Positions 8,835-31,178 of a stretch of 35,456 nucleotides of DNA are shown piece after piece. This DNA is from a virus. Position 1 is the stretch's first letter. Every line of letters starts with the position of its first letter. The translations under genes were made by a program, and so were the position numbers. The DNA lies in the IMG/VR virus record IMGVR_UViG_3300044960_000577, positions 1 to 35,456 of that record. The stretch is one strand, 5' to 3'. The notes beneath the pieces are model-generated. The model searched no databases and was not told the origin of the DNA. It saw only the letters and a list, made by a program, of their open reading frames with translations.

Positions 8835-10232
8835 TTAACCCCCAGCAAGAAATAACGCGTAGAACGTCTGCGTGCCAAACTCCTGGCGTGCCTCCAGCGT
8901 GGCCCCAGCGGGCAGCGCCACGGGGATGGTCCATGCCGTCGTCTCCGCACCGCCATCGCTAGTCCCGCGGAAGAGAACAAACCCCGACCAGACCGGTGAC
9001 CCACCTGCACGCACGGTCAACAGCGCGCCGACACTGGTGACCGTCTGCCCGTTTGTCGGGCCAATGATAGCCACAAGACACCGTGTATCGAAGTCCAGTG
9101 TGCCAAATGACGTGAACGCGGTGCCGGGCGACAGCGCCGTCCCGCGCGATGCGGTTGTATCGGCACCAAGCGTCTGCCACCGTGTGCAGGTGGGTGCACC
9201 ACGGTTGGCAACGTTCCCGACAACATTGCAGGTGACACCGCCAGTCGATGCCTGAGCGCGCGCGACGAGTACTGTTCCAGCAGGAATCGTCCACGGCAGG
9301 TGGACCGGCATGCCACGCCCATTATTCAGAGTCCGTGCGTAGTGGAGATTTGCCAAGACGACTTGCTGTACGCCATTCACGACCACCCCGAGATCGTACA
9401 GGACGGTATAACTACCTGACGCCTCAACCCAGAAGGTCACGTACAGATCCGTTACATCGTGGTCCCATCCACCCGCCGGACTAATGACCTGCCATGCGCC
9501 TTTGCTATGCGCGCTCGCCCCAGCGGCAGGACCAACCCCGGCACCGAAGGCTTCAATGCTTCTGCCCTCCGTGCCCGGCCGCCAGAGCCCGCTCGGTGAG
9601 TGCAGAGTGGGAGGCCAAAAAATCATCGCATGCCCCTCTTCCGGTACCCGCACTGCTGCCCGGATTTCCACGGACACCGCACGCCAACCACTGGACGTTC
9701 CGCCGACAGAAACGGACTTCGCAGTCCAGACAAGCACACCATTGTTCGTGTCAAACGCTGACCCCTCATCGGTGGCGTCCACGTCGTTGACACGCCGCAC
9801 GGTGCCAGTCGGCGGGTTTTCCAGCGCCGTGTTCGTCGACCGGTGACCGGCGGCGCAGAAGACCATCGAGTTCCCGTTCGTCTGCTGCAGCGTGAGCGCT
9901 GGATAGGTGACGGTCGTGCTGGAACCGCCACCCTGCTCCGATGCCCCAATAGGAGTGGTCGTATCCTGCCCGCGATAGACACAGCACAGGACTGTCGTCG
10001 CATCTGTCCACGTACTGGTGGACGTATCGCCAGATTGCAGGACGCGGTAACCGACGCGCTGCGAGCACGTGTTGGCACCACCGTTGATGATGTTTGTCCA
10101 GCCCGTGGGTAGCGATGGCGCGGTCGTGCTGCCGTCGCGGAAGGCGAAGACGATGGCGAGATCGCCGGGCTGCCATCCGGTCGGAAGCGATGCGGACGTT
10201 GTCCCGGATGTGGCACCGACGAACTGTAGCAT
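8835..10232 (-). CDS. Large fibre/adsorption protein, 465 aa
   Basis: The start at ATG 10232 is chosen because it lies just after the stop of the 65-aa gene; longer in-frame versions would overlap two genes. The first 200 residues are a beta-rich, Ser/Thr-rich domain with PTGWQPGDLAIVFAF and WTDATTVLCCVYRG, a pattern shared by many phage and environmental surface proteins. Residues about 210-465 form a second beta-rich region (WDHDVTDLYVTFWVEASGSY, later VGALLTVRAGGSPVWSGFVL). The DNA here looks less GC-rich than the core tail genes, suggesting recent exchange. Function inferred from position only. Confidence 0.55.
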   Translation of the reverse strand: MLQFVGATSGTTSASLPTGWQPGDLAIVFAFRDGSTTAPSLPTGWTNIINGGANTCSQRVGYRVLQSGDTSTSTWTDATTVLCCVYRGQDTTTPIGASEQGGGSSTTVTYPALTLQQTNGNSMVFCAAGHRSTNTALENPPTGTVRRVNDVDATDEGSAFDTNNGVLVWTAKSVSVGGTSSGWRAVSVEIRAAVRVPEEGHAMIFWPPTLHSPSGLWRPGTEGRSIEAFGAGVGPAAGASAHSKGAWQVISPAGGWDHDVTDLYVTFWVEASGSYTVLYDLGVVVNGVQQVVLANLHYARTLNNGRGMPVHLPWTIPAGTVLVARAQASTGGVTCNVVGNVANRGAPTCTRWQTLGADTTASRGTALSPGTAFTSFGTLDFDTRCLVAIIGPTNGQTVTSVGALLTVRAGGSPVWSGFVLFRGTSDGGAETTAWTIPVALPAGATLEARQEFGTQTFYALFLAGG

Positions 10233-10237
10233 GATCG

Positions 10238-10435
10238 CTACCGCGTGACCATTCGTGCATGCTGAGCAACTTGCGCAGCCTCGGGATGACGGCTCCACGC
10301 GAACTGCTCATCCCACGCCATGACGTAGCAGCAGTCCGTGAACCACTTCGCGGTCCCTCCGGCGGTCGGGTTGACCACGCTGTGCGCCCAGAGGCCGCCA
10401 GTAGGAGTGGACAGGACGCTCACCGGCCCCACCAT
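10238..10435 (-). CDS. Small hypothetical protein, 65 aa
   Basis: Reads MVGPVSVLSTPTGGLWAHSV and continues to a C-terminal QVAQHARMVTR. ATG 10435 overlaps the upstream 47-aa gene by 16 bases; an alternative GTG at 10423 would give a GTGA overlap of the kind used at many junctions here. It contains a Trp/Phe-rich middle (KWFTDCCYVMAWDEQFAW). It is not recognised, and no membrane segment or motif is clear. Confidence 0.45.
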   Translation of the reverse strand: MVGPVSVLSTPTGGLWAHSVVNPTAGGTAKWFTDCCYVMAWDEQFAWSRHPEAAQVAQHARMVTR

Positions 10436-10563
10436 CCCAACAGACGCGCCACGACGCCAACGGCCGCAGCAAGGCCGAACATCGCAAAGACGATGAGAAA
10501 CGCCACGGCGGCAAACCACGCCCACGTGCGTCGGAGCAATTCCCGCAACTGCTCAGGCGTCAT
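10420..10563 (-). CDS. Small membrane protein, possible holin-like, 47 aa
   Basis: ATG 10563 overlaps the stop of the glycoside hydrolase gene (ATGA). A charged amphipathic N-terminus (MTPEQLRELLRRTW) is followed by one hydrophobic segment (about residues 15-40) and an Arg-ended tail. The shape resembles very small single-span phage holins or anchors. Coupling to a polysaccharide-degrading enzyme gene is suggestive, but lysis function is not shown and no endolysin is next to it. Confidence 0.5.
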   Translation of the reverse strand: MTPEQLRELLRRTWAWFAAVAFLIVFAMFGLAAAVGVVARLLGWWGR

Positions 10564-11579
10564 GGCAGTCCCGAGATCGTCACCACGCGCGGGTCGCGGA
10601 GAAGCTCGCGACCGTACCGGTTGCGCATCAGGCTCCATCCCTCGTTCCAAAACATCATCCACGATAGTGGTTGGTAGGAGATGGAGTCGAGGACCCTACG
10701 GCAATCCAGCGACCCGTCTGGCGGATCACTTGGACCGACTTCCGCGAAACAGTAGGGTTTATTGAGCGCCACCAGCTCCGGTGTGACCGGAATGACGCGC
10801 CCCCACTGCGTGGAACCGCGATACACCGTCGGCCCCACCATGTCTACAACCGTCGCGCCCGGGTACCGCTGCGAGCCGCCAACCGTTGCCATACAATTGT
10901 AGACCCAGATCAGGTCAGTTAGCCCGCGCGCCGTAAAGTCGTGATGCAACCGCGCCCACCAGTCTTTCACGGCAGGCTGCGACCACCAAAACCCCGGGTT
11001 GTTAACCTCGGGGAATGGTCGCCAGAGTATGACATACCCGAGCGCCAATAGCTGCTGGAGCCCAGCGGAGAAAACGTCGAGCGTCCGCCGCCACGATGAG
11101 TATGTCCACGGGTCGCCGCTGAAGGGCGGCGCAAAATCGGTGCCAATTTGCGGGTTCGGGAAGTGTCCGCTGACGAACACCAATGGCCGTCGGCCCGCCA
11201 CCGAAGTGTACTGCTCAATGGCGACCACCTCAGTATCCCACCCCAGTGACGACCCGGCCGCAGACACGAATGACACACCGATCAGGCCAGGATAGGGTTC
11301 ACCTTGTAGCCAACTACGCAACTCGGTGAGGCCGGCTGTTGCCGATGCACCGCCCCCACCGTGCCAACCGAGGTATTGGCCAACCACAGCCTGTCCGGTT
11401 GCCGGCAGCGATGCCAGCCACGCGACGACCGCGTCCTTCGTGCCCGTAGGCGGGGGCGGCGGTGGTGGCGGCGAAGGCGGCGGAGATGAGGCCGCGACTC
11501 GCACCGTGATCAGGTCGGACTGATAGGACGCGACGAGATTCCCGGAGGGATCGCGGATCTCTACAGTCGCCACCGTCAC
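10560..11579 (-). CDS. GH26-like glycoside hydrolase on the tail (putative depolymerase), 339 aa
   Basis: GTG start overlapping the preceding stop (GTGA). Residues 1-30 are a short beta strand region, 31-44 a polyproline linker, and about 47-339 a barrel resembling glycoside hydrolase family 26 (clan A). The two catalytic acids are seen: general acid Glu191 in WRPFPEVN followed by FWW, and nucleophile Glu280 in PYCFAEVG. Between them are LIWVYN and PGATVVDMVGPTVY, also typical of GH26. There is no signal peptide, so it is probably virion-borne, cutting a mannan-like or other beta-linked surface polysaccharide during adsorption. The substrate is unknown. DNA composition differs from the tail core, suggesting transfer. 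Confidence 0.72.
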   Translation of the reverse strand: MTVATVEIRDPSGNLVASYQSDLITVRVAASSPPPSPPPPPPPPTGTKDAVVAWLASLPATGQAVVGQYLGWHGGGGASATAGLTELRSWLQGEPYPGLIGVSFVSAAGSSLGWDTEVVAIEQYTSVAGRRPLVFVSGHFPNPQIGTDFAPPFSGDPWTYSSWRRTLDVFSAGLQQLLALGYVILWRPFPEVNNPGFWWSQPAVKDWWARLHHDFTARGLTDLIWVYNCMATVGGSQRYPGATVVDMVGPTVYRGSTQWGRVIPVTPELVALNKPYCFAEVGPSDPPDGSLDCRRVLDSISYQPLSWMMFWNEGWSLMRNRYGRELLRDPRVVTISGLP

Positions 11580-23269: not shown

Positions 23270-25621
23270 TTAGTCCCCGGCCCAGGCGTCCTCCGGGGCC
23301 AAGTCCACGTCCTCAAACCCCGGCAGCGCGTCGCAGCGACAGTTGACGACCTCCTCAGGAGGCCCCTCAGGGTCCAGCGGGAACCGCAGGCCATTGGGGA
23401 ACCGCTCCCCGACCCTGATGGTCACGCCGTCCAGCGCCTGGTGGCTCGGGCGCACCTTGTCGTCGCGGGTGGTGATCCAGGTGTAGGTCTGCACGCCGGC
23501 GCGGCGGAAGACCTCATCCTGCGTGACCGTCTGCGCCATGCCGGTTTCCGTGCGCGCGATGGTCTCAGCGCGGCGCCGGTACGTCTCCTCGATCTCCCCC
23601 GCCAGGTCGCGCCGTATGGCCCGCGCCACGTCTAGCGGGTTTTTGCCCTCCTCAAAGAACTTCTCAATGAGCAGGTCCTGCAGGTCCTGGCGCGCGGTGG
23701 CGGTGATGTCCCGGATGTGCTCGCCCGCGATGCGCCGGAAGGTGTCCACCAGCGCCGGGTTCTTCAAGTCGAAGGCCACCCGCAGGCCCATGGCGCTGTA
23801 GGCGGCCGTCCCGGCCCAGTTGGCCACGTCCCGCATGTGCTGCACGGTCGCCTCCAGCAGGTCGTCCGCGGAGAACGCATCTGGCATGTCAGCGAACAGC
23901 CCCTCCAGGATCGCCCGCTGCGTGGGGCTGAGCGGCCGGCGCGCCTTTTCCGCCACGGCCTCCGCCGCAGGCACCCCCTGGGCGCGCACGGCCTGCACGG
24001 CCGCCACCAGCCGCCGCTCCTCCAGACCGGCCAGGTACCGCGCGGCCTTGGCCGCCAGCAGGCGCGTGACCACAGCCTGGAACCGCTTGACCAGGCGCTC
24101 CCGCGCCCGCAGCGTGGCCGGCTGGGCTCGCTTGAGGCCCAGGCTCTCCAGCAGCCGCTGGTCCTCCGCGCTCACTCCGTCCCCGGCACCGTCCCCGCCG
24201 CCGCTGGCCCGCGCGCCGAGGGCCGGCAGGTCCGCTACGCGCACCGGCGCGGCCGGGTTGATCCAGATGATGCGCTCGTCCCCGCCCGGCACCGGCTCCT
24301 TGCCCAGGTGTACAGCAACGTCATTGGGCGACCACGCGCCGAGTTTCACGCGCCGCTCCGCCAGTTCCATGTCGCGCACTTCATCGCGCACGTCGATTTC
24401 CTGGAACCGCAGTTCCCAGTCCTTCACCCCCAGCACGTCCCGGAACAGCCGGTTGAGCACGGCCTCCAGGCGGGTCTGGCGGGGCTTGATTACAGACTCC
24501 TTGTAGATCTGCGTCATCTCCGCGGCCGTGGCCCCGCCCAGGCTGCCCACGATGGCCCAGCCCACGCGGTAGGGCGGCATCTTGTGCGCCACCAGAATCT
24601 CCGTGGCGTTGTCCAGTTTGAACAGCCTGAAACTGGCGTCCCGCACCTCCACAGCCAGCGGCTCCAGCGTGACGTCCACCGTCTGCCCGGCCACCCCCGG
24701 CAGGGCCTCCAGCAGCACGGTGCGGTGATGCTGCCCCCTCAGCTGCTCCCGGAAGAACGTCTCGATGTAGTTGCGGCTGTCGGGGCTCAGCCGGCCGCCC
24801 TTCACCACCACGGCGTATGCCGGCACCGCGCGGTTGTCAAAGAACTCGATGTTGAACTCATGGGCCTTCTGGCTCCCGAGCATGGCAGAGAGCGCGCCCA
24901 GCCACTGGGGCGCGCCGTAGAACTCGCTCAGGTGCGTGTAAAGTTTGAGGTGCAGGACCTCGCTGGCCGCGTGCTCCAGCGCCAGCGTGCCCTGGGCCTC
25001 CCGGCCCGTGCGGTTGTCAATGGTCCGGTCATCCCCGTACAGCTTGAAGTACCGCCGCCTGCCGCCCCGCACCTGCACGTAGCCCTCCCGGTGCCGGCGC
25101 ACGCGCACGGTGGGGGCGGGCATGTGGTAGACGGCCAGTTGCTGGTTCGGCCCGCGAATGACCTCCAGGTAGCCGTTGCCCACGGCCTCCCAGTCCGTCA
25201 CCCACCGGGACATGATCTCCGTGAAGGACTCGTCCGGGTTGGGCGCGTCCAGGAACGCCTGCAGGCGCTCCCGCTGGGCAGGGTCCGGCTCCGTGCCCTC
25301 CGGCAGGCCGGGCGCACGGACGATCTGGAACCCGCGCTCCACCGCGTCAATGGCCTTCTGCTGCACGCAGGCGCCGTGCAGGGGGTTCAGGTAGATCCAG
25401 TCGTACAGTTTGCTCAGGTCAAACGGCGGCTCGACGACCTGCGCGCCGAAGCCGACCTTCTCCAGTTCCTCCAGTTGCCGGCTGCTGGGCGGCCAGGCGC
25501 CGCCGATGGCTTGCTGCTTCAGGGCCTCGACGCTGACCACGCGGCCATCGCCGACGATGAAGGCCTCAACGGCCCCCGAGGCTTCGACTTCCCCGTTGTG
25601 GATGAAGGTAGCTCGGGCCAT
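23270..25621 (-). CDS. Portal protein fused to MuF-type minor head protein, 783 aa
   Basis: Residues about 45-480 are a PBSX/SPP-type portal (LSKLYDWIYLNPLHGACVQQ, VTDWEAVGNGYLEVIRGPNQ, PPYRVGWAIVGSLGGATAAE). Residues about 510-783 are a Mu gpF-like minor head domain: helical region, ARTETGMAQTVTQDEVFRRA near 689, YTWITTRDDKVRPSHQALDG, and the closing EEVVNCRCDALPGF. In most phages these are two genes. The portal forms the DNA gate at one capsid vertex; the MuF part normally enters the head. The gene starts right next to a divergent lipoprotein gene. Confidence 0.88.
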   Translation of the reverse strand: MARATFIHNGEVEASGAVEAFIVGDGRVVSVEALKQQAIGGAWPPSSRQLEELEKVGFGAQVVEPPFDLSKLYDWIYLNPLHGACVQQKAIDAVERGFQIVRAPGLPEGTEPDPAQRERLQAFLDAPNPDESFTEIMSRWVTDWEAVGNGYLEVIRGPNQQLAVYHMPAPTVRVRRHREGYVQVRGGRRRYFKLYGDDRTIDNRTGREAQGTLALEHAASEVLHLKLYTHLSEFYGAPQWLGALSAMLGSQKAHEFNIEFFDNRAVPAYAVVVKGGRLSPDSRNYIETFFREQLRGQHHRTVLLEALPGVAGQTVDVTLEPLAVEVRDASFRLFKLDNATEILVAHKMPPYRVGWAIVGSLGGATAAEMTQIYKESVIKPRQTRLEAVLNRLFRDVLGVKDWELRFQEIDVRDEVRDMELAERRVKLGAWSPNDVAVHLGKEPVPGGDERIIWINPAAPVRVADLPALGARASGGGDGAGDGVSAEDQRLLESLGLKRAQPATLRARERLVKRFQAVVTRLLAAKAARYLAGLEERRLVAAVQAVRAQGVPAAEAVAEKARRPLSPTQRAILEGLFADMPDAFSADDLLEATVQHMRDVANWAGTAAYSAMGLRVAFDLKNPALVDTFRRIAGEHIRDITATARQDLQDLLIEKFFEEGKNPLDVARAIRRDLAGEIEETYRRRAETIARTETGMAQTVTQDEVFRRAGVQTYTWITTRDDKVRPSHQALDGVTIRVGERFPNGLRFPLDPEGPPEEVVNCRCDALPGFEDVDLAPEDAWAGD

Positions 25622-25664
25622 GCTGTTGCGGTGGTTCCGGGGGGCCGTGGGTGCATTCCTTCAC

Positions 25665-25677
25665 CCCCTGGCAGGGG
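25665..25677. other. Perfect short palindrome CCCCTGGCAGGGG between divergent genes
   Basis: Lies in the 120-base gap between the portal start (minus) and the lipoprotein start (plus). Arms CCCCT and AGGGG around GGC. It could be an operator or a small hairpin in the portal leader. No clear -35/-10 pair was found around it on either strand. Confidence 0.25.
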
Positions 25678-25744
25678 ATCAGCTACCTTGCGGGCAATCC
25701 GCCTATGTGCCCAAATAGCATGACCCCTGCGGAGGTGACGGCCA

Positions 25745-26137
25745 ATGAGGTCGGTGAGATTGTTCATAGGGCTGGTTCTGATCGCTCTAGTAGTCACCGC
25801 CTGCACGGGTGCTTCCCTTGACCCCGCTCGAAGCAGCACAGTCGAGGGCGTCCCAATCCCCGCGGCCGCGCGAGAGTGGGGGCCGGCTACCCCATTTCAG
25901 GCCAACTACAAGGTGCCCGGCGCAGAGTACGCCCGCCTGCTGGCATGGTATGATGTGCAACTACCGTCGGGACGAGCCTGGAAGGATTGGCAGTGGTGCG
26001 AAATCGTCCGTGACGCCACGTTCGTGCAACGCAACTATCACGTGCCCGGCACCCGGCACATTCTGGGCGTCGTGCTTACCAAAGGGAACCCGCCCACCAT
26101 CCTCATCGGCCGCGACCAAAGCGGCCCGTGCCTGTGA
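25745..26137 (+). CDS. Small lipoprotein on the opposite strand (moron-type gene), 130 aa
   Basis: The only convincing plus-strand gene. GGAGGTGA lies 6 bases before ATG 25745. It has a basic start, hydrophobic core (LFIGLVLIALVV) and a lipobox ending VTAC, giving lipidated Cys20. The mature part contains YKVPGAEYARLLAWYDVQLP, then WCEIVRDATFVQRNYHVP and ILGVVLTKGNPPTILIGRD, a small alpha-beta domain of the kind where a WY-containing helix precedes strands. Its orientation against the late operon suggests expression in the lysogen. Phage-encoded lipoproteins of this kind (T5 Llp, streptococcal Ltp) block superinfection; that role is inference. Confidence 0.8.
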   Translation: MRSVRLFIGLVLIALVVTACTGASLDPARSSTVEGVPIPAAAREWGPATPFQANYKVPGAEYARLLAWYDVQLPSGRAWKDWQWCEIVRDATFVQRNYHVPGTRHILGVVLTKGNPPTILIGRDQSGPCL

Positions 26138-26161
26138 CCTCCCATATCACGCTGACCTGTG

Positions 26162-26193
26162 ATAGGCATAGCAAGTAGTACGCTATTCCCTAT
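26162..26193. terminator. Hairpin between convergent genes
   Basis: ATAGG pairs with CCTAT, and ATAGC with GCTAT inside it, around a 9-base loop. It is placed between the ends of the plus-strand lipoprotein gene and the minus-strand phosphoribosyltransferase gene. There is no clear T run, so terminator function is uncertain. An overlapping TATCAC/GTGATA inverted repeat lies at 26145-26164. Confidence 0.3.
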
Positions 26194-26233
26194 ACCCGGT
26201 TCGTGGCCGGTTCAAGTGGCTCTGGGCAGGCTA

Positions 26234-27475
26234 TTACGCGAACGGTCTTCCTTTCCTCCACAGGTCGAAAGACTGTGCTAGGAGCATCCCAGCCGATGGA
26301 TTTTCCTCCAGCCTAACCTGCTCTTGGCCAAAGTCGCGGGCGATATCGTAGTCCTTTAGCCCAAAGGGCTCAACTATGTCCGGCCTACGAGGAACATAGG
26401 TAACATACGGTTTGGGGTACTTGCCGATCGTGAGCAGGATGATTTCGCGGGCCCCAGCAGCGTACAGCAGGTTCCGGGCCCACTCCAGCGACATTCCGGT
26501 TGTCGTGAAATCGTCGAAGATGATGACGCTGCGGTCCTTGATCCCATCTCGATACTCCGGATTCACATGGACTGTGTTTGTTTGGTTGGAGAAGTCCACG
26601 GGGTCATCCTGTCGGCCTTGCTTCCGAGCTTCACTGCGCGCCATGCTGCTGTCGATGGCTGGTCTCCCCCGCATGAGAAGATCCTCCTTGAAGTACCCGT
26701 GGAAGAGGCTAGATGCGGGCGCGACGAACTCACGTAGGACGCCACTAATCTTGCCGGGTCTGCTGCCAGGGTATACTGCGAAGTACGAATGTGGACGCAC
26801 GCGCCCCTCGACATAGAGGCTGCTTATCGCGTGCATCATCAGGAGATCCCGTGCGGACCATTGTCCAACCGTGACTTTGAGCCCGTAAGTGAAGACATCC
26901 TGCAGCCTGAAGGTTGGTTGGCTGGTTGCGGGCAGATTGGCGTTCGCGCCTAGGAGACTCCGCAGAGAGAGCCGTATCTTGGGATCGTCAGCACGATATT
27001 CCCAGCGCGGCCGGAGCAGAAGAAAGTGCGTGACATACCGCAAAACATCACCTGGACTTCCAGCGGACAAGACGGCAGTGATGCCGGAAGGCGGCGATTG
27101 GACCCACCGAGCGTGCAGATAGAATGTAGCTGCGTGGATGGCAGTTAACCAGTCCTGCTTGTCACTGCCGATGTACAACAGTTCGAACGGCTGCAACGCT
27201 AGCCGTCTGGCCGACTCTTCGATCCAGAGCGGCGAGCCCTTCTTCTTTGCCCCAGGTATGTCGGTCAGAGTGAGGAAGATATCCACTCTAGGGAGAGAGC
27301 GTGCCGCCAATTCCTTGTCAATGTCCTTCGGGTGGGTGGAGAATATCCCCACCCTGAGGTTCCTGGTCTTGAGTTCGGTGATTAGATCCCGGATTTCGGT
27401 CAGGAGTGGCTGATTTTGGAGCGGGAGCAGAATCGTCGTGTGGTCGAAGATGACACCCTTAAGAATTCCCCTCAC
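26234..27475 (-). CDS. HAD-like/phosphoribosyltransferase fusion, ShosT-like, 413 aa
   Basis: The likely start GTG 27475 overlaps the DprA-like gene by 17 bases; longer in-frame versions would overlap it far more. Residues about 5-130 are HAD-like: motif I KGVIFDHTT with Asp11 but Thr13 in place of the second Asp, a Thr motif in VGIFSTHPKD, and LLYIGSDKQDWLTAIHAA as motif IV. Residues about 200-413 form a type I phosphoribosyltransferase with the PRPP-binding motif SVIIFDDFTTTGMSLEW (about 315-332). Pairing with a DprA-like protein matches the ShosTA toxin-antitoxin/defence type, where the transferase is the toxin. Confidence 0.72.
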   Translation of the reverse strand: MRGILKGVIFDHTTILLPLQNQPLLTEIRDLITELKTRNLRVGIFSTHPKDIDKELAARSLPRVDIFLTLTDIPGAKKKGSPLWIEESARRLALQPFELLYIGSDKQDWLTAIHAATFYLHARWVQSPPSGITAVLSAGSPGDVLRYVTHFLLLRPRWEYRADDPKIRLSLRSLLGANANLPATSQPTFRLQDVFTYGLKVTVGQWSARDLLMMHAISSLYVEGRVRPHSYFAVYPGSRPGKISGVLREFVAPASSLFHGYFKEDLLMRGRPAIDSSMARSEARKQGRQDDPVDFSNQTNTVHVNPEYRDGIKDRSVIIFDDFTTTGMSLEWARNLLYAAGAREIILLTIGKYPKPYVTYVPRRPDIVEPFGLKDYDIARDFGQEQVRLEENPSAGMLLAQSFDLWRKGRPFA

Positions 27476-28763
27476 CCTCCAATTCCCTGGCCCACTGAGA
27501 CAGCAGCGTAATGAGCCTCTCGAGTTCCCCCGGCTTGACGTTCCTGCTCCTGATCTCGCTCCGAAGACGCTTCTCCACGAGCGATAGCGGAAAGACTTCG
27601 TGCCCCGCTTGCTGTGCAAGTTGCTGAAATATCTGGTCGAGGTGTTTCCAGCCGGATGAAGTTAGTACATCGACGACAGGGGCTCCGTCCCGAATCAACT
27701 CCTCGACCAATCCGTTTGCCCCCCTCCATCGCACCGCCAGGACTTTGCGGCCATACCTGCGGGCGAATCGAATGGTGTGAACGGTTCCGCCTTTCGGCCC
27801 GGACTCTATCGGTACTACCATGTCAGCCAGCGCCGCCTGCAATCGATTGCGTTCAACAAATGTCGTTCTCCGGTAATGCTCATGGGGCAGGTACTCAGTA
27901 GCAACAGCCCCGCCCTTCTCTAGGATCATTTCTCTCAGAGGGGCTGTGGACGCAGGGAACACAATCCCGATGCCGTGGCCGAGGAAGGCGACATTCACGA
28001 CTCCCTCCTGGAGCGACGCGCGGTGAGCCTCCTCATCGACGCCCTCAGCGAGGCCCGAGATGAGCGTGATCGGATACGCAGCCAGGATCTTGGCGACGAT
28101 GGTCGCTGCTCTGCGACCCTGGGATGAGGGCTTTCTGGTGCCAACAACGGCCACTGCCGGCCTGTGATAAAGCGCCCTGGCATTCCCTTGAACGAAGAGC
28201 CATCCCGGGGGATCGAGGATTTCCCGTAAGGGCGCTGGCAGTTCGCGCGCCGGGATAACTCTCACGCCTTTACCGGAAAGCTCGGCCGCCTTCTCCTGGC
28301 CCCGGGACAAAAGAACCGGCGCCATACGGAGGATTTCACTTGTCATCCGGTCTGAGGCCCGGACCTTCGCCTTCACCAGAATGTCTCGAAGGAGGACGGG
28401 GTCTGCGTGCCATACCCTGCCAAGCTCGCCCTCGAAAGCCTCCACGAGTGCCCTAAGGCCTCTCAGGCCAAGCCCCTTGATGCCGCTCAGCGCCAGTAGA
28501 GACACGTCGAACGGCACGGATTCGCGGCGGTGGGCACCCTCTCTCGGCTCTGGGAACAGAGGGCCGATCGTTTTCTCCGGAGCCACCTTCACTGAGTCCA
28601 CCGTCATAGGCGAACCTGCATCAACGCGATCCTCGCTCCCAACGGTCACAGGCGCTGCCACCTCGGCACCCTGGTGCCCTCCGGGGCTGTCGTCCATCAC
28701 CCACGGTAGACCTTCCTGTAGGCCGGACGCGAAAGTGCCCTTAGCCCGACGATGCGTCTCCAA
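27459..28763 (-). CDS. DprA/SMF-like protein, ShosA-like, 434 aa
   Basis: TTG start at 28763 with AAGGGAG at a spacing of 8. The first 85 residues are low-complexity and acidic. Residues 92-115 form a helix-hairpin-helix-type unit (LSGIKGLGLRGLRALVEAF). Residues about 200-350 form the DprA Rossmann domain: VVGTRKPSSQG (206-216), ISGLAEGVDEEAHRA (235-249), FPAS (269-272), TFVERNRLQAALADMVVPIE (301-320) and a Gly-rich GPKGGTVHT. A C-terminal helical part follows. Host DprA loads RecA in transformation, but here the gene is inside the phage late region and overlaps the phosphoribosyltransferase gene, so an antitoxin or DNA-sensing role is favoured. Confidence 0.75.
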   Translation of the reverse strand: METHRRAKGTFASGLQEGLPWVMDDSPGGHQGAEVAAPVTVGSEDRVDAGSPMTVDSVKVAPEKTIGPLFPEPREGAHRRESVPFDVSLLALSGIKGLGLRGLRALVEAFEGELGRVWHADPVLLRDILVKAKVRASDRMTSEILRMAPVLLSRGQEKAAELSGKGVRVIPARELPAPLREILDPPGWLFVQGNARALYHRPAVAVVGTRKPSSQGRRAATIVAKILAAYPITLISGLAEGVDEEAHRASLQEGVVNVAFLGHGIGIVFPASTAPLREMILEKGGAVATEYLPHEHYRRTTFVERNRLQAALADMVVPIESGPKGGTVHTIRFARRYGRKVLAVRWRGANGLVEELIRDGAPVVDVLTSSGWKHLDQIFQQLAQQAGHEVFPLSLVEKRLRSEIRSRNVKPGELERLITLLSQWARELEGEGNS

Positions 28764-29074
28764 CGGGGGTTCTCCCTTGACTTGACACCGACAGAATCAG
28801 GCAGATGATTGCGCCTGGATATGTGGGAAAAGGAAGATCAAGCCCCGCCCCGCAGTTAGCCCACATAGGCCCACTTGTGTTCCCAATTTCTTGGGAGTGG
28901 ACCGTTTTCCTGCCGTGAACCCATGGCCCGGTCCTCGGTGGCCATCCCGGAAGGGAGGCGGCCAATTCCAAGCAGTTGACGCAGCCCTTACGGGCATTCT
29001 CAGCGCCTAGCGCACTCAAGCTGGCAACAGGGACCATCAGTGCCAGCGGATGGGGAGGGAGGCTAGGTGCACAC
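28764..29074. other. Intergenic region between large terminase and the DprA-like gene
   Basis: About 310 bases without a convincing gene. It must hold the signals for the DprA-like/phosphoribosyltransferase pair. It includes a perfect inverted repeat TCCCAA-tttc-TTGGGA at 28881-28896, which could be an operator or hairpin, and a repeated GTGGGC word next to it. No strong -35/-10 pair was identified. Short open frames here have no ribosome site. Confidence 0.4.
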
Positions 29075-30505
29075 TCAGATCACGCTCACCTGCACCGCGT
29101 CCGTGAGGCCCAGGCTGTGTACCAACTCAATACCCGCGTAGGCCGCCACATCCACCTGGTCATCATGCTCCGCGTTCGGGAACGCGGCCAACTCCTCCTC
29201 CCACTCTCCCAGCCACGGCGCGCCGCGCCGATGGTACACGGTGCCCAACTCGTAGCGCGCCGCCATGGTGCGGGCGCGCGCCACCTTGTCCCCCTCCGCG
29301 GGCAGGGGCTTGATGGGCAGGCCGGCCTTGGCTGCCCCTTGGATGATGTTTAACCCGAAGGCCGCACGCTCCACGCCCTGAAACGCCGGCTGCCAGCGCT
29401 GGTACTGCTGGCGCATGATCTGCTCATGGCTGGTGGTAGCCGCGTGGGTCCGAAACACGTCCAGCAGCAGCAGGTCCCCCTCCGGCGTCACCGCCCAGGT
29501 GGCCAGCGCGAACCAGTCTGACTGCTCGCTGGCCAGGGCGTTGGGATCGCAGGTCTGGAACCGCCAGCACTGGCTGGCCAGCACCCGCTTCACCGTGCCG
29601 TCCCGGGCGTGCAGCAGGTACAGCGTGTCCTCCCCGTGGGGTTCCTCCGTGAAGTACTGAAACCACTGCCGCTTGAACAGGTTACCCTCCGGCGGCGCCG
29701 GCCGCTGCTGGTACAGGGCGGCCCACCAGTAGGGGCCGATGCGTTGCCGGATGCGCTGCAGGCGCTCCGCCGGGTAGCGCTGCGGCCACAGCGCCTCCCC
29801 CGGCTCCCGGCGCCAGCCCGGCAACTCCTCCGGCTCCTCCGCCAGGGCCGGCAGGCGCACCACGGTCCACTCATGGTCGTCCTCTGCGGCCTCGGCCAGA
29901 ATCCGGCCGGCCAGGTCGTTCTGGTGCCACCGCGTCATCATCAGCACCATCACGCCGTCCGGCTCCAGGCGCGGCAGGGCCACGCTGCGGAACCAGTCAA
30001 TGGCGCGCTCCTGGTAGGTCTTGCTCTGCGCCTCCAACTGGTTCTTCACGGGGTCGTCGATGATGAACAGGTTGGCCCCGCGGCCGGTAATGGCACCCCC
30101 GATGCCAGCCGTGACCATGCCGCCGCCAGTGTTGGCCCACCGGCCGCCGGCGCGCCGCTGCACGTCCCAGGCGCTGGCGCTGCTGGTGAGCGGGTTCACA
30201 CGGATGCCCCACACGTCCGGGCCGAATTCATCCAGGGCGTCCCGGGCCTTGCGCCCCCACGTGGCCGCGTAGCCGGCCTCGTAACTGGCTAGGATGACGC
30301 GGTCCTCGGGGAACGTCCCCAGCCACCAGCCGGGGAAGTACTGGCTGATGAGCATGGACTTGCCCGAGCGGGGCGGCATGAAGACCATGAGGAACCGGAT
30401 GCGCCGGGCGGCCAGTTCAATCAGCGCGCGGTTCACCACCGCCAGGTGCGGCGCCACTGTCCACCGCCCCCGGCTGGCGTACATCGCCCACCCCGCCGGC
30501 GCCAT
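29075..30505 (-). CDS. terL: Terminase large subunit, 476 aa
   Basis: DNA packaging motor and nuclease. With the start at ATG 30505, Walker A is MPPRSGKS (43-50) and Walker B LFIIDD (146-151). The nuclease half has FQTCDPNALASEQSDWFAL and the last acidic motif HDDQVDV (447-453). Length and pattern match the psiM2/Terminase_6C-type group. The gene overlaps the small terminase gene by 89 bases; starts further upstream in frame would overlap still more and are less likely. It packs DNA through the portal protein encoded beyond the accessory island. Confidence 0.92.
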   Translation of the reverse strand: MAPAGWAMYASRGRWTVAPHLAVVNRALIELAARRIRFLMVFMPPRSGKSMLISQYFPGWWLGTFPEDRVILASYEAGYAATWGRKARDALDEFGPDVWGIRVNPLTSSASAWDVQRRAGGRWANTGGGMVTAGIGGAITGRGANLFIIDDPVKNQLEAQSKTYQERAIDWFRSVALPRLEPDGVMVLMMTRWHQNDLAGRILAEAAEDDHEWTVVRLPALAEEPEELPGWRREPGEALWPQRYPAERLQRIRQRIGPYWWAALYQQRPAPPEGNLFKRQWFQYFTEEPHGEDTLYLLHARDGTVKRVLASQCWRFQTCDPNALASEQSDWFALATWAVTPEGDLLLLDVFRTHAATTSHEQIMRQQYQRWQPAFQGVERAAFGLNIIQGAAKAGLPIKPLPAEGDKVARARTMAARYELGTVYHRRGAPWLGEWEEELAAFPNAEHDDQVDVAAYAGIELVHSLGLTDAVQVSVI

Positions 30506-31178
30506 CCGCGCCAGGTCCCGGCCCCGCAGCCCGGGTCCGGGCCAGGACGCCGAAGAGGTCAGCCACGATCCGGCTGGCGTCGGGGTCCTGAAGGATGAGC
30601 CGCGCGATGGCATCGGCATCGTGGTGCACCTTCCCAGTGACTTCTGCGTGCTCGGTCGGCAGCCCGCGGGCCAGGCGCTCAATGCGCACGGCCACGTCCG
30701 CCAAGCGCGCCAGATCGGTCGCGCTCATCTCCTCCGGGTGCAGGGCCGCCACCGGCACCTCCCTGGGCTGACCCTCGGGGGTCATCACCCGGTCCTTGCC
30801 GCCCCGCAGGCGCAGGATCACCTTCTGCAGCGCCAGGGCGGCGGCCGCCGCATGTCGGCGCAGCATCTCCTCCTGCTCCTTGCGCAGGGCCTGCTGGCGC
30901 AGCCGCTCCTGCTGGGCATCCCACTGCTCCGCCCGGAAGACCCACTGCCAGCGCACGGACAGCCGGCCGATGAACTGCCGGGAACGGCCCACACGCCGGG
31001 AAACCTCCTGCAAACTCCTCTCCAGCGGCCCCAGGTCCCGGTAGACGGCGAACATGGCATAGGCCCGGGCACCTTCACGGGGCTGCCGCTCCCACGGGTC
31101 CCGGTTAGTGGCCAGCTGGCGCACCCTGGGGTGGTACCCGGCCCAGGGGGCGCCCTCGATCTCCTCACGCCGGCTCAA
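30417..31178 (-). CDS. terS: Terminase small subunit, 253 aa
   Basis: TTG start at 31178 with AAGGAGG at a spacing of 9. It has an N-terminal HTH region (LERSLQEVSRRVGRSRQFIG, then RWQWVFRAEQWDAQ), a helical central part (RLRQQALRKEQEEMLRRHAA and SATDLARLADVAVRIERLAR) and a Gly/Pro/Ala-rich disordered C-terminus in the overlap with the large subunit gene. This layout fits a DNA-recognising small terminase that starts packaging. No other candidate lies upstream of the large subunit. Confidence 0.8.
   Translation of the reverse strand: MSRREEIEGAPWAGYHPRVRQLATNRDPWERQPREGARAYAMFAVYRDLGPLERSLQEVSRRVGRSRQFIGRLSVRWQWVFRAEQWDAQQERLRQQALRKEQEEMLRRHAAAAALALQKVILRLRGGKDRVMTPEGQPREVPVAALHPEEMSATDLARLADVAVRIERLARGLPTEHAEVTGKVHHDADAIARLILQDPDASRIVADLFGVLARTRAAGPGPGADGAGGVGDVRQPGAVDSGAAPGGGEPRAD

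Follow-up and report, generated by a model that had tools for sequence, protein, structure and literature searches.

The DprA-like gene and the HAD-like/phosphoribosyltransferase (PRTase) gene found at positions 26234-28763 of the IMG/VR virus record IMGVR_UViG_3300044960_000577 (the window, that is the whole stretch of 35,456 bases that was analysed) form, judged from sequence profiles and structural models, a distant member of the known ShosTA family, not a system of a new type. We consider it highly likely that the pair is a phage-carried ShosTA that was inserted as cargo between terL and the portal gene and that serves abortive defence against competing phages. The homology, the intact genes, the fold match, the linkage and the position were computed here, and for toxicity, antitoxin action, defence and purine effect we rely on published work with E. 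coli ShosTA; by analogy with this work we infer that the window copy is expressed and has a role in defence.

Results

Profile, structure and fold comparisons

The gene for the DprA-like (SLOG/Rossmann) putative antitoxin, shosA, lies on the minus strand at 27459-28607 and encodes 382 aa from a likely ATG at 28607. We favour this start because L002, a related viral contig, carries an aligned methionine there ('MNIDSI', and 'MTVDSV' in the window). The reading frame is intact, and the maximal ORF, from TTG 28763, would encode 434 aa; of the extension that it adds, the N-terminal part included in the model was predicted to be disordered (pLDDT <50). ShosA of the window matched Pfam DNA_processg_A with 176 bits (cut-off 29.6), the PADLOC ShosA profile at 6.3e-66 (221 bits) and the solved ShosA structures in the PDB (8zva/9vzo) at about 7e-37. 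An AlphaFold2 model (pLDDT 88.6), which like that of ShosT was built on alignments of the loci collected from relatives, had 8zva as its top Foldseek match (1.9e-21), followed by true DprA proteins. Assignment as a housekeeping DprA orthologue was considered and rejected, as the score of 150 bits is below the TIGR00732 cut-off of 191.

The putative toxin gene, shosT, follows at 26234-27475 on the same strand and encodes a HAD-like domain and a PRTase, 413 aa in total from a likely GTG at 27475, where homologues support a start. Its reading frame is also intact, with a maximal ORF of 461 aa from TTG 27619. With the starts that homologues support the two genes overlap by 17 nt, and it is only with the longest ORFs that the overlap reaches 161 nt. 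The initial annotation had noted an N-terminal extension, an overlap of the two genes and TTG/GTG starts, the starts as a possible mark of a variant. The extension, the size of the overlap and the TTG starts mostly trace back to over-long maximal ORFs: TTG 28763 and TTG 27619 belong to the longest ORFs, and the GTG at 27475 is retained as the likely start of shosT.

The Pfam signals in ShosT were weak (HAD 1e-2, PRTase 1e-3), and the PADLOC ShosT profile matched at 7.2e-25 (86 bits), so that the profile comparison proposed in that annotation gave matches for both proteins. From sequence alone, the solved E. coli ShosT (8zvb) matched residues 53-394 of the window protein, HAD-like part included (7e-12), in an alignment that spans residues 11-364 of E. 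coli ShosT. Since 8zvb covers the HAD-like part, the HAD-PRTase architecture is the canonical one of ShosT; a novel fusion, as implied by the earlier description of the HAD-like domain as 'added', was ruled out by this alignment. The AlphaFold2 model of ShosT (pLDDT 91.2, pTM 0.87) matched solved ShosT over its whole length, with a Foldseek TM of 0.70-0.74 to 8zvb-8zvd. The best three Foldseek matches were ShosT, with 8zvc (with PRPP) at 7e-24, and were followed by plain HAD enzymes at 2e-5. We conclude from the agreement of profiles, solved structures and fold comparison that the pair is, as far as such comparisons can assign it, ShosTA.

The pair was compared with the E. coli/P2-like ShosTA, for which structures 8zva, 8zvb-8zvd, 9vzo, 9w2p and 9w2q served as references. 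Both have the order shosA-shosT, the DprA fold, the HAD-like and PRTase parts, the PRPP loop, and phage carriage next to packaging functions. However, they share only about 20-28% identity (about 20-24% for ShosT), HAD motif I has Asp in the window and Ser in E. coli ShosT, and the window ShosA has a longer and different C-terminus without the QLSLL-type end. The low identity to E. coli ShosT suggests that the target and the trigger of the window pair may differ. The PRPP-binding loop, IFDDFTTTG, lies at approximately 26490-26516 (minus strand); its D, D, T and G are present in 44/44 aligned ShosT, window included, although the scan pattern itself demanded both Asp in the genome loci. HAD motif I, IFDHTT (approximately 27430-27450, minus strand), keeps the Asp at the nucleophile position and lacks the D+2 Asp. 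This motif-I Asp is found in 27 of the 44 ShosT, comprising all actinobacterial rows, the window and L002, and Ser, Gly or Asn takes its place in the remaining 17, the E. coli type included; across the 44 proteins the D+2 residue is usually not Asp and the motif-IV Asp is invariant.

Linkage and relatives of the pair

Scanning with the ShosT alignment, using one genome per species, gave 44 loci, with chromosomal copies being frequent. For the assessment of linkage the genome-scan loci were pooled with plasmid, phage and viral loci and only full-length proteins were kept, which left 44 ShosT. A ShosA-type DprA was present in the same locus for 43 of these, the exception (L042) beginning at a contig edge. 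Moreover, at least two DprA-type genes were found in each of the 17 genomes with ShosA relatives that were checked, the better-scoring copy being separate from ShosA. We conclude from this linkage, together with the second, separate DprA in 17/17 genomes, that shosA-shosT is a conserved unit and does not reflect an accidental position beside dprA. The proposal of a ShosTA-like DprA/PRTase pair is therefore borne out by profiles, structure, linkage and the gene order of relatives, and on the two points that could have spoken against it, the transferase proved to be related to ShosT and the pair to be linked in its relatives.

The ShosT alignment recovered only four loci from IMG/VR, of which three were new, and ShosA adjoined ShosT in all three new ones; for ShosA alone, IMG/VR gave no match with the pattern set used. 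The closest partner of the window in the ShosT tree is L002 (100/98), and both fall on the actinobacterial side. A clade of the ShosA tree (100/100) unites the window and L002 with the Streptomyces cadmiisoli plasmid (L004), Catellatospora (L012), Catelliglobosispora (L013), Microbispora (L015) and Kitasatospora (L035), and all seven have the order shosA-shosT. The actinobacterial pairs and L002 share with the window this gene order, the C-terminal extension of ShosA and the HAD motif-I Asp, at identities of 37-48% for ShosT and 39-46% for ShosA; the actinobacterial pairs are, however, located on a chromosome or plasmid, whereas that of the window lies in a phage late operon. ShosTA has been listed among the defence systems in actinobacterial prophages (PMC10023795).

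A second ShosT/ShosA group, from Streptomyces, often has shosT first, has the genes in divergent orientation in some cases and has another DprA type. In the three annotated examples, on plasmids of Streptomycetaceae (L005:3983-7051, L006:2013-5233 and L009:2992-6128), ShosT adjoins this other DprA, and a gene of the ComF or PRTase family lies beside the DprA. These triads, and probably others, are a ShosTA variant of three genes in which the antitoxin has been exchanged: their ShosT is related to that of the window and has the HAD motif-I Asp, but they differ from the window in order or orientation, in DprA type and in the extra ComF-like PRTase gene.

An accessory slot between terL and portal

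Gene calls and profile matches place the late genes of the window in a single, long operon on the minus strand, in the order DnaD-like helicase loader, RusA, small terminase, TerL, slot and portal, then head protease-like genes, major head protein, tape measure and tail genes. The relatives of its phage genes are scattered over unrelated phages; a search of IMG/VR for close relatives of the window terminase gave no match, and no tRNA was found in the window. The slot (25622-29074, 3453 bp, no strand assigned) stands out by the gene order of relatives and by its low GC. It is bordered upstream by terL (29075-30682, minus strand; phrog_38, 5.6e-90) and downstream by a portal gene fused to a Mu F-like head morphogenesis domain (23270-25621, minus strand; Pfam Phage_portal 1e-24, Phage_Mu_F 2e-14).

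In 45 loci of related viruses, gathered via portal relatives and including one contig twice (L058 and L164), the terL stop and the portal start were <=45 bp apart or overlapping in 41, compared with 3453 bp in the window. The other four distances were 136, 290, 1242 and 2438 bp, the two larger gaps containing other small or tail-like genes. As this junction is closed in most relatives we conclude that the slot is accessory, in line with the initial annotation. The lower GC noted there was also recovered, the ShosTA region having 59.1% GC against a window mean of 68%, and third-position GC being 67-73% in the slot genes (67-68% in the pair) against 91% in TerL and portal. This contrast is real but not unique, as two other late genes are equally low, and low GC is therefore insufficient alone as proof of insertion, which comes instead from the gene order of relatives. 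The two genes in question (8835-10298 and 10560-11579, GC3 68-72%) lie in the tail region, one of them has no PHROG match, and they are possibly host-range modules acquired elsewhere.

In the 467 bp that separate the stop codon of terL from the likely start of shosA (28608-29074, minus strand) no sigma-70-type promoter or terminator was seen on the minus strand. Over the slot as a whole, searches for promoters, terminators and flanking repeats returned nothing that clearly exceeded chance and pointed to no boundary or mechanism of insertion. A second cargo gene of the slot is an ORF of 130 aa with a lipoprotein-type signal peptide (LVVTAC) at 25745-26137, which is on the plus strand, opposite to the late operon, within the low-GC region. 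It had no relative in the phage collection, and its product is a candidate superinfection-exclusion or other lysogenic-conversion lipoprotein.

Further observations were made on this part of related loci. Acetobacter phage phiAO1 (L091:3792-6495) carries stress-response cargo between its terminase and portal genes, namely genes for a sulfurtransferase, a peroxiredoxin and a Cu-Zn superoxide dismutase in reversed orientation, so that the terL-portal junction serves as a cargo slot there too. The Piscirickettsia salmonis plasmid NZ_CP039233 (L008:1992-7029), which is 41 kb, carries an ssb gene and is phage-plasmid-like, has shosA-shosT just upstream of phage terminase genes, so that ShosTA is again beside packaging genes. 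A large terminase ORF at L156:5436-7568 apparently contains two intein-like insertions, one in the Walker A region and one near the C-terminus.

C-termini of ShosA proteins

The ShosA alignment and model place a C-terminal extension of about 45 aa at 27459-27600 (minus strand), which in the AlphaFold2 model forms two helices (365-377 and 382-403). In the window clade this extension stands where other ShosA proteins have a C-terminal peptide of the form QxxL[FL]. Outside the window clade and the Streptomyces group the proteins, mostly from Proteobacteria, end in QQLSLL, QQLSLF, QMELF, QMTLF or QKSLF, with examples at L007:1150-1194, L038:5530-5572, L044:5220-5259, L037:5950-5989, L046:5940-5981 and L011:4910-4952, among others; those of Streptomyces mostly end in QLALAGL. 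The pattern Qxx[LIMF][FLI] was present in the last 14 residues of 14 of 17 such ShosA proteins and in 21 of 966 long ORFs taken as background, among which the ShosA frames are counted. A narrower pattern, Q[LM]xL[FL], was found in none of 918 background ORFs and none of 17 housekeeping DprA proteins.

These peptides resemble the beta-clamp-binding motif, which is of the QL[SD]LF type. The pattern was picked after viewing the sequences and the rows are related, and it is therefore put forward as a lead only; a search of the literature found no paper reporting a clamp-motif-like ShosA C-terminus. The peptide could tether the antitoxin ShosA to the replisome. A bolder proposal is that the window clade is a functionally distinct ShosTA branch, in which the clamp-binding peptide has been exchanged for a helical tail, the HAD centre is partly active, and the trigger and the way in which the antitoxin is held at DNA are unlike those of E. 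coli ShosTA; we regard this as tentative and, on balance, rather improbable.

Discussion

P2-like phages are known to carry a DprA-PRTase pair as anti-phage cargo in a hotspot next to cos (Rousset 2022, PMC9122126); the pair was seen here in L007. A passage of a review (PMC12593503, citing Pu 2025 Nat Commun 16:3141) attributes to ShosT phosphoribosyltransferase and pyrophosphatase activity and a disturbance of purine metabolism, with DNA duplications, filamentation and death as the outcome, and describes ShosA as a protein that binds DNA and likely recruits homologous recombination factors; the same passage names T7 Gp0.7 as a trigger of ShosTA. The initial annotation suggested that the DprA-like protein could sense single-strand DNA handling by a competitor. 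Another paper (PMC10732053) places ShosTA among systems whose response is to the single-strand-binding protein of the phage or to intermediates of replication/recombination.

Were the window pair to act in the same manner, ShosT would bind PRPP and, once released, would disturb the purine nucleotide pool, leading to DNA damage and arrest of the cell. ShosA, as a DprA-like DNA-binding protein, would restrain this effect, probably by aiding recombinational repair. A second phage that disturbs the host would tip the balance, and the infected cell would die or stall before the competitor is released. Certain points weigh against this reading: the identity to E. coli ShosT is low, the clade lacks the C-terminal peptide of ShosA, the genes lie on the late-operon strand with no promoter of their own found, and scanning of proteins from the window fragment revealed neither an integrase nor a repressor, so that a lysogenic state in which such cargo would pay is not evident.

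It might be argued that the pair serves mainly for addiction or maintenance, so that the phage, or a plasmid-like prophage, is retained in the cell population, defence being secondary or absent. The toxin-antitoxin architecture would suit this, many relatives are plasmid-borne, and the neighbours of the nearest relative, L002, resemble by eye a plasmid PRTRC cassette. Yet the known DprA-PRTase pair (ShosTA) makes E. coli resistant to T7 and lambda (PMC9122126), copies on chromosomes are common, and a late-region cargo slot fits competition genes equally well; we think such a role unlikely. Still less probable, in our estimation, is use of the pair by the phage in its own lytic growth, with the DprA-like protein acting in DNA recombination and the PRTase altering the nucleotide pool. 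Its position directly downstream of terL on the same strand, with no promoter or terminator found between, would be compatible with this, and jumbo phages have DprA-like proteins that have been proposed as extra single-strand-binding proteins (PMC7824862). However, nearly all relatives lack the pair in this slot, which argues that it is dispensable for growth, and the matches are to chromosomal and plasmid ShosTA proteins, not to phage core genes.

We give hardly any credence to identity with PsyrTA or another DprA-linked toxin system. PsyrTA likewise has a DprA-like antitoxin, and the PsyrA profile scored 79 bits with the DprA-like protein of the window, but ShosA scored 221 bits, the PsyrT toxin was hardly matched (10 bits, E 0.046) compared with 86 bits for ShosT, and the whole-length fold match goes to ShosT. 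PsyrTA was rejected on this profile ranking, and ShosTA cargo acting in defence against competing phages is the reading that we prefer.

The window adds a case of phage-borne ShosTA that is far from the E. coli type, and it shows that defence cargo can enter at the terL-portal junction, where the two genes normally leave no gap. As one half of the family has the motif-I Asp and the other half lacks it, catalysis by the HAD-like domain becomes testable. If the C-terminal peptide tethers ShosA to the replication clamp, this could identify the unknown factor that ShosA recruits.
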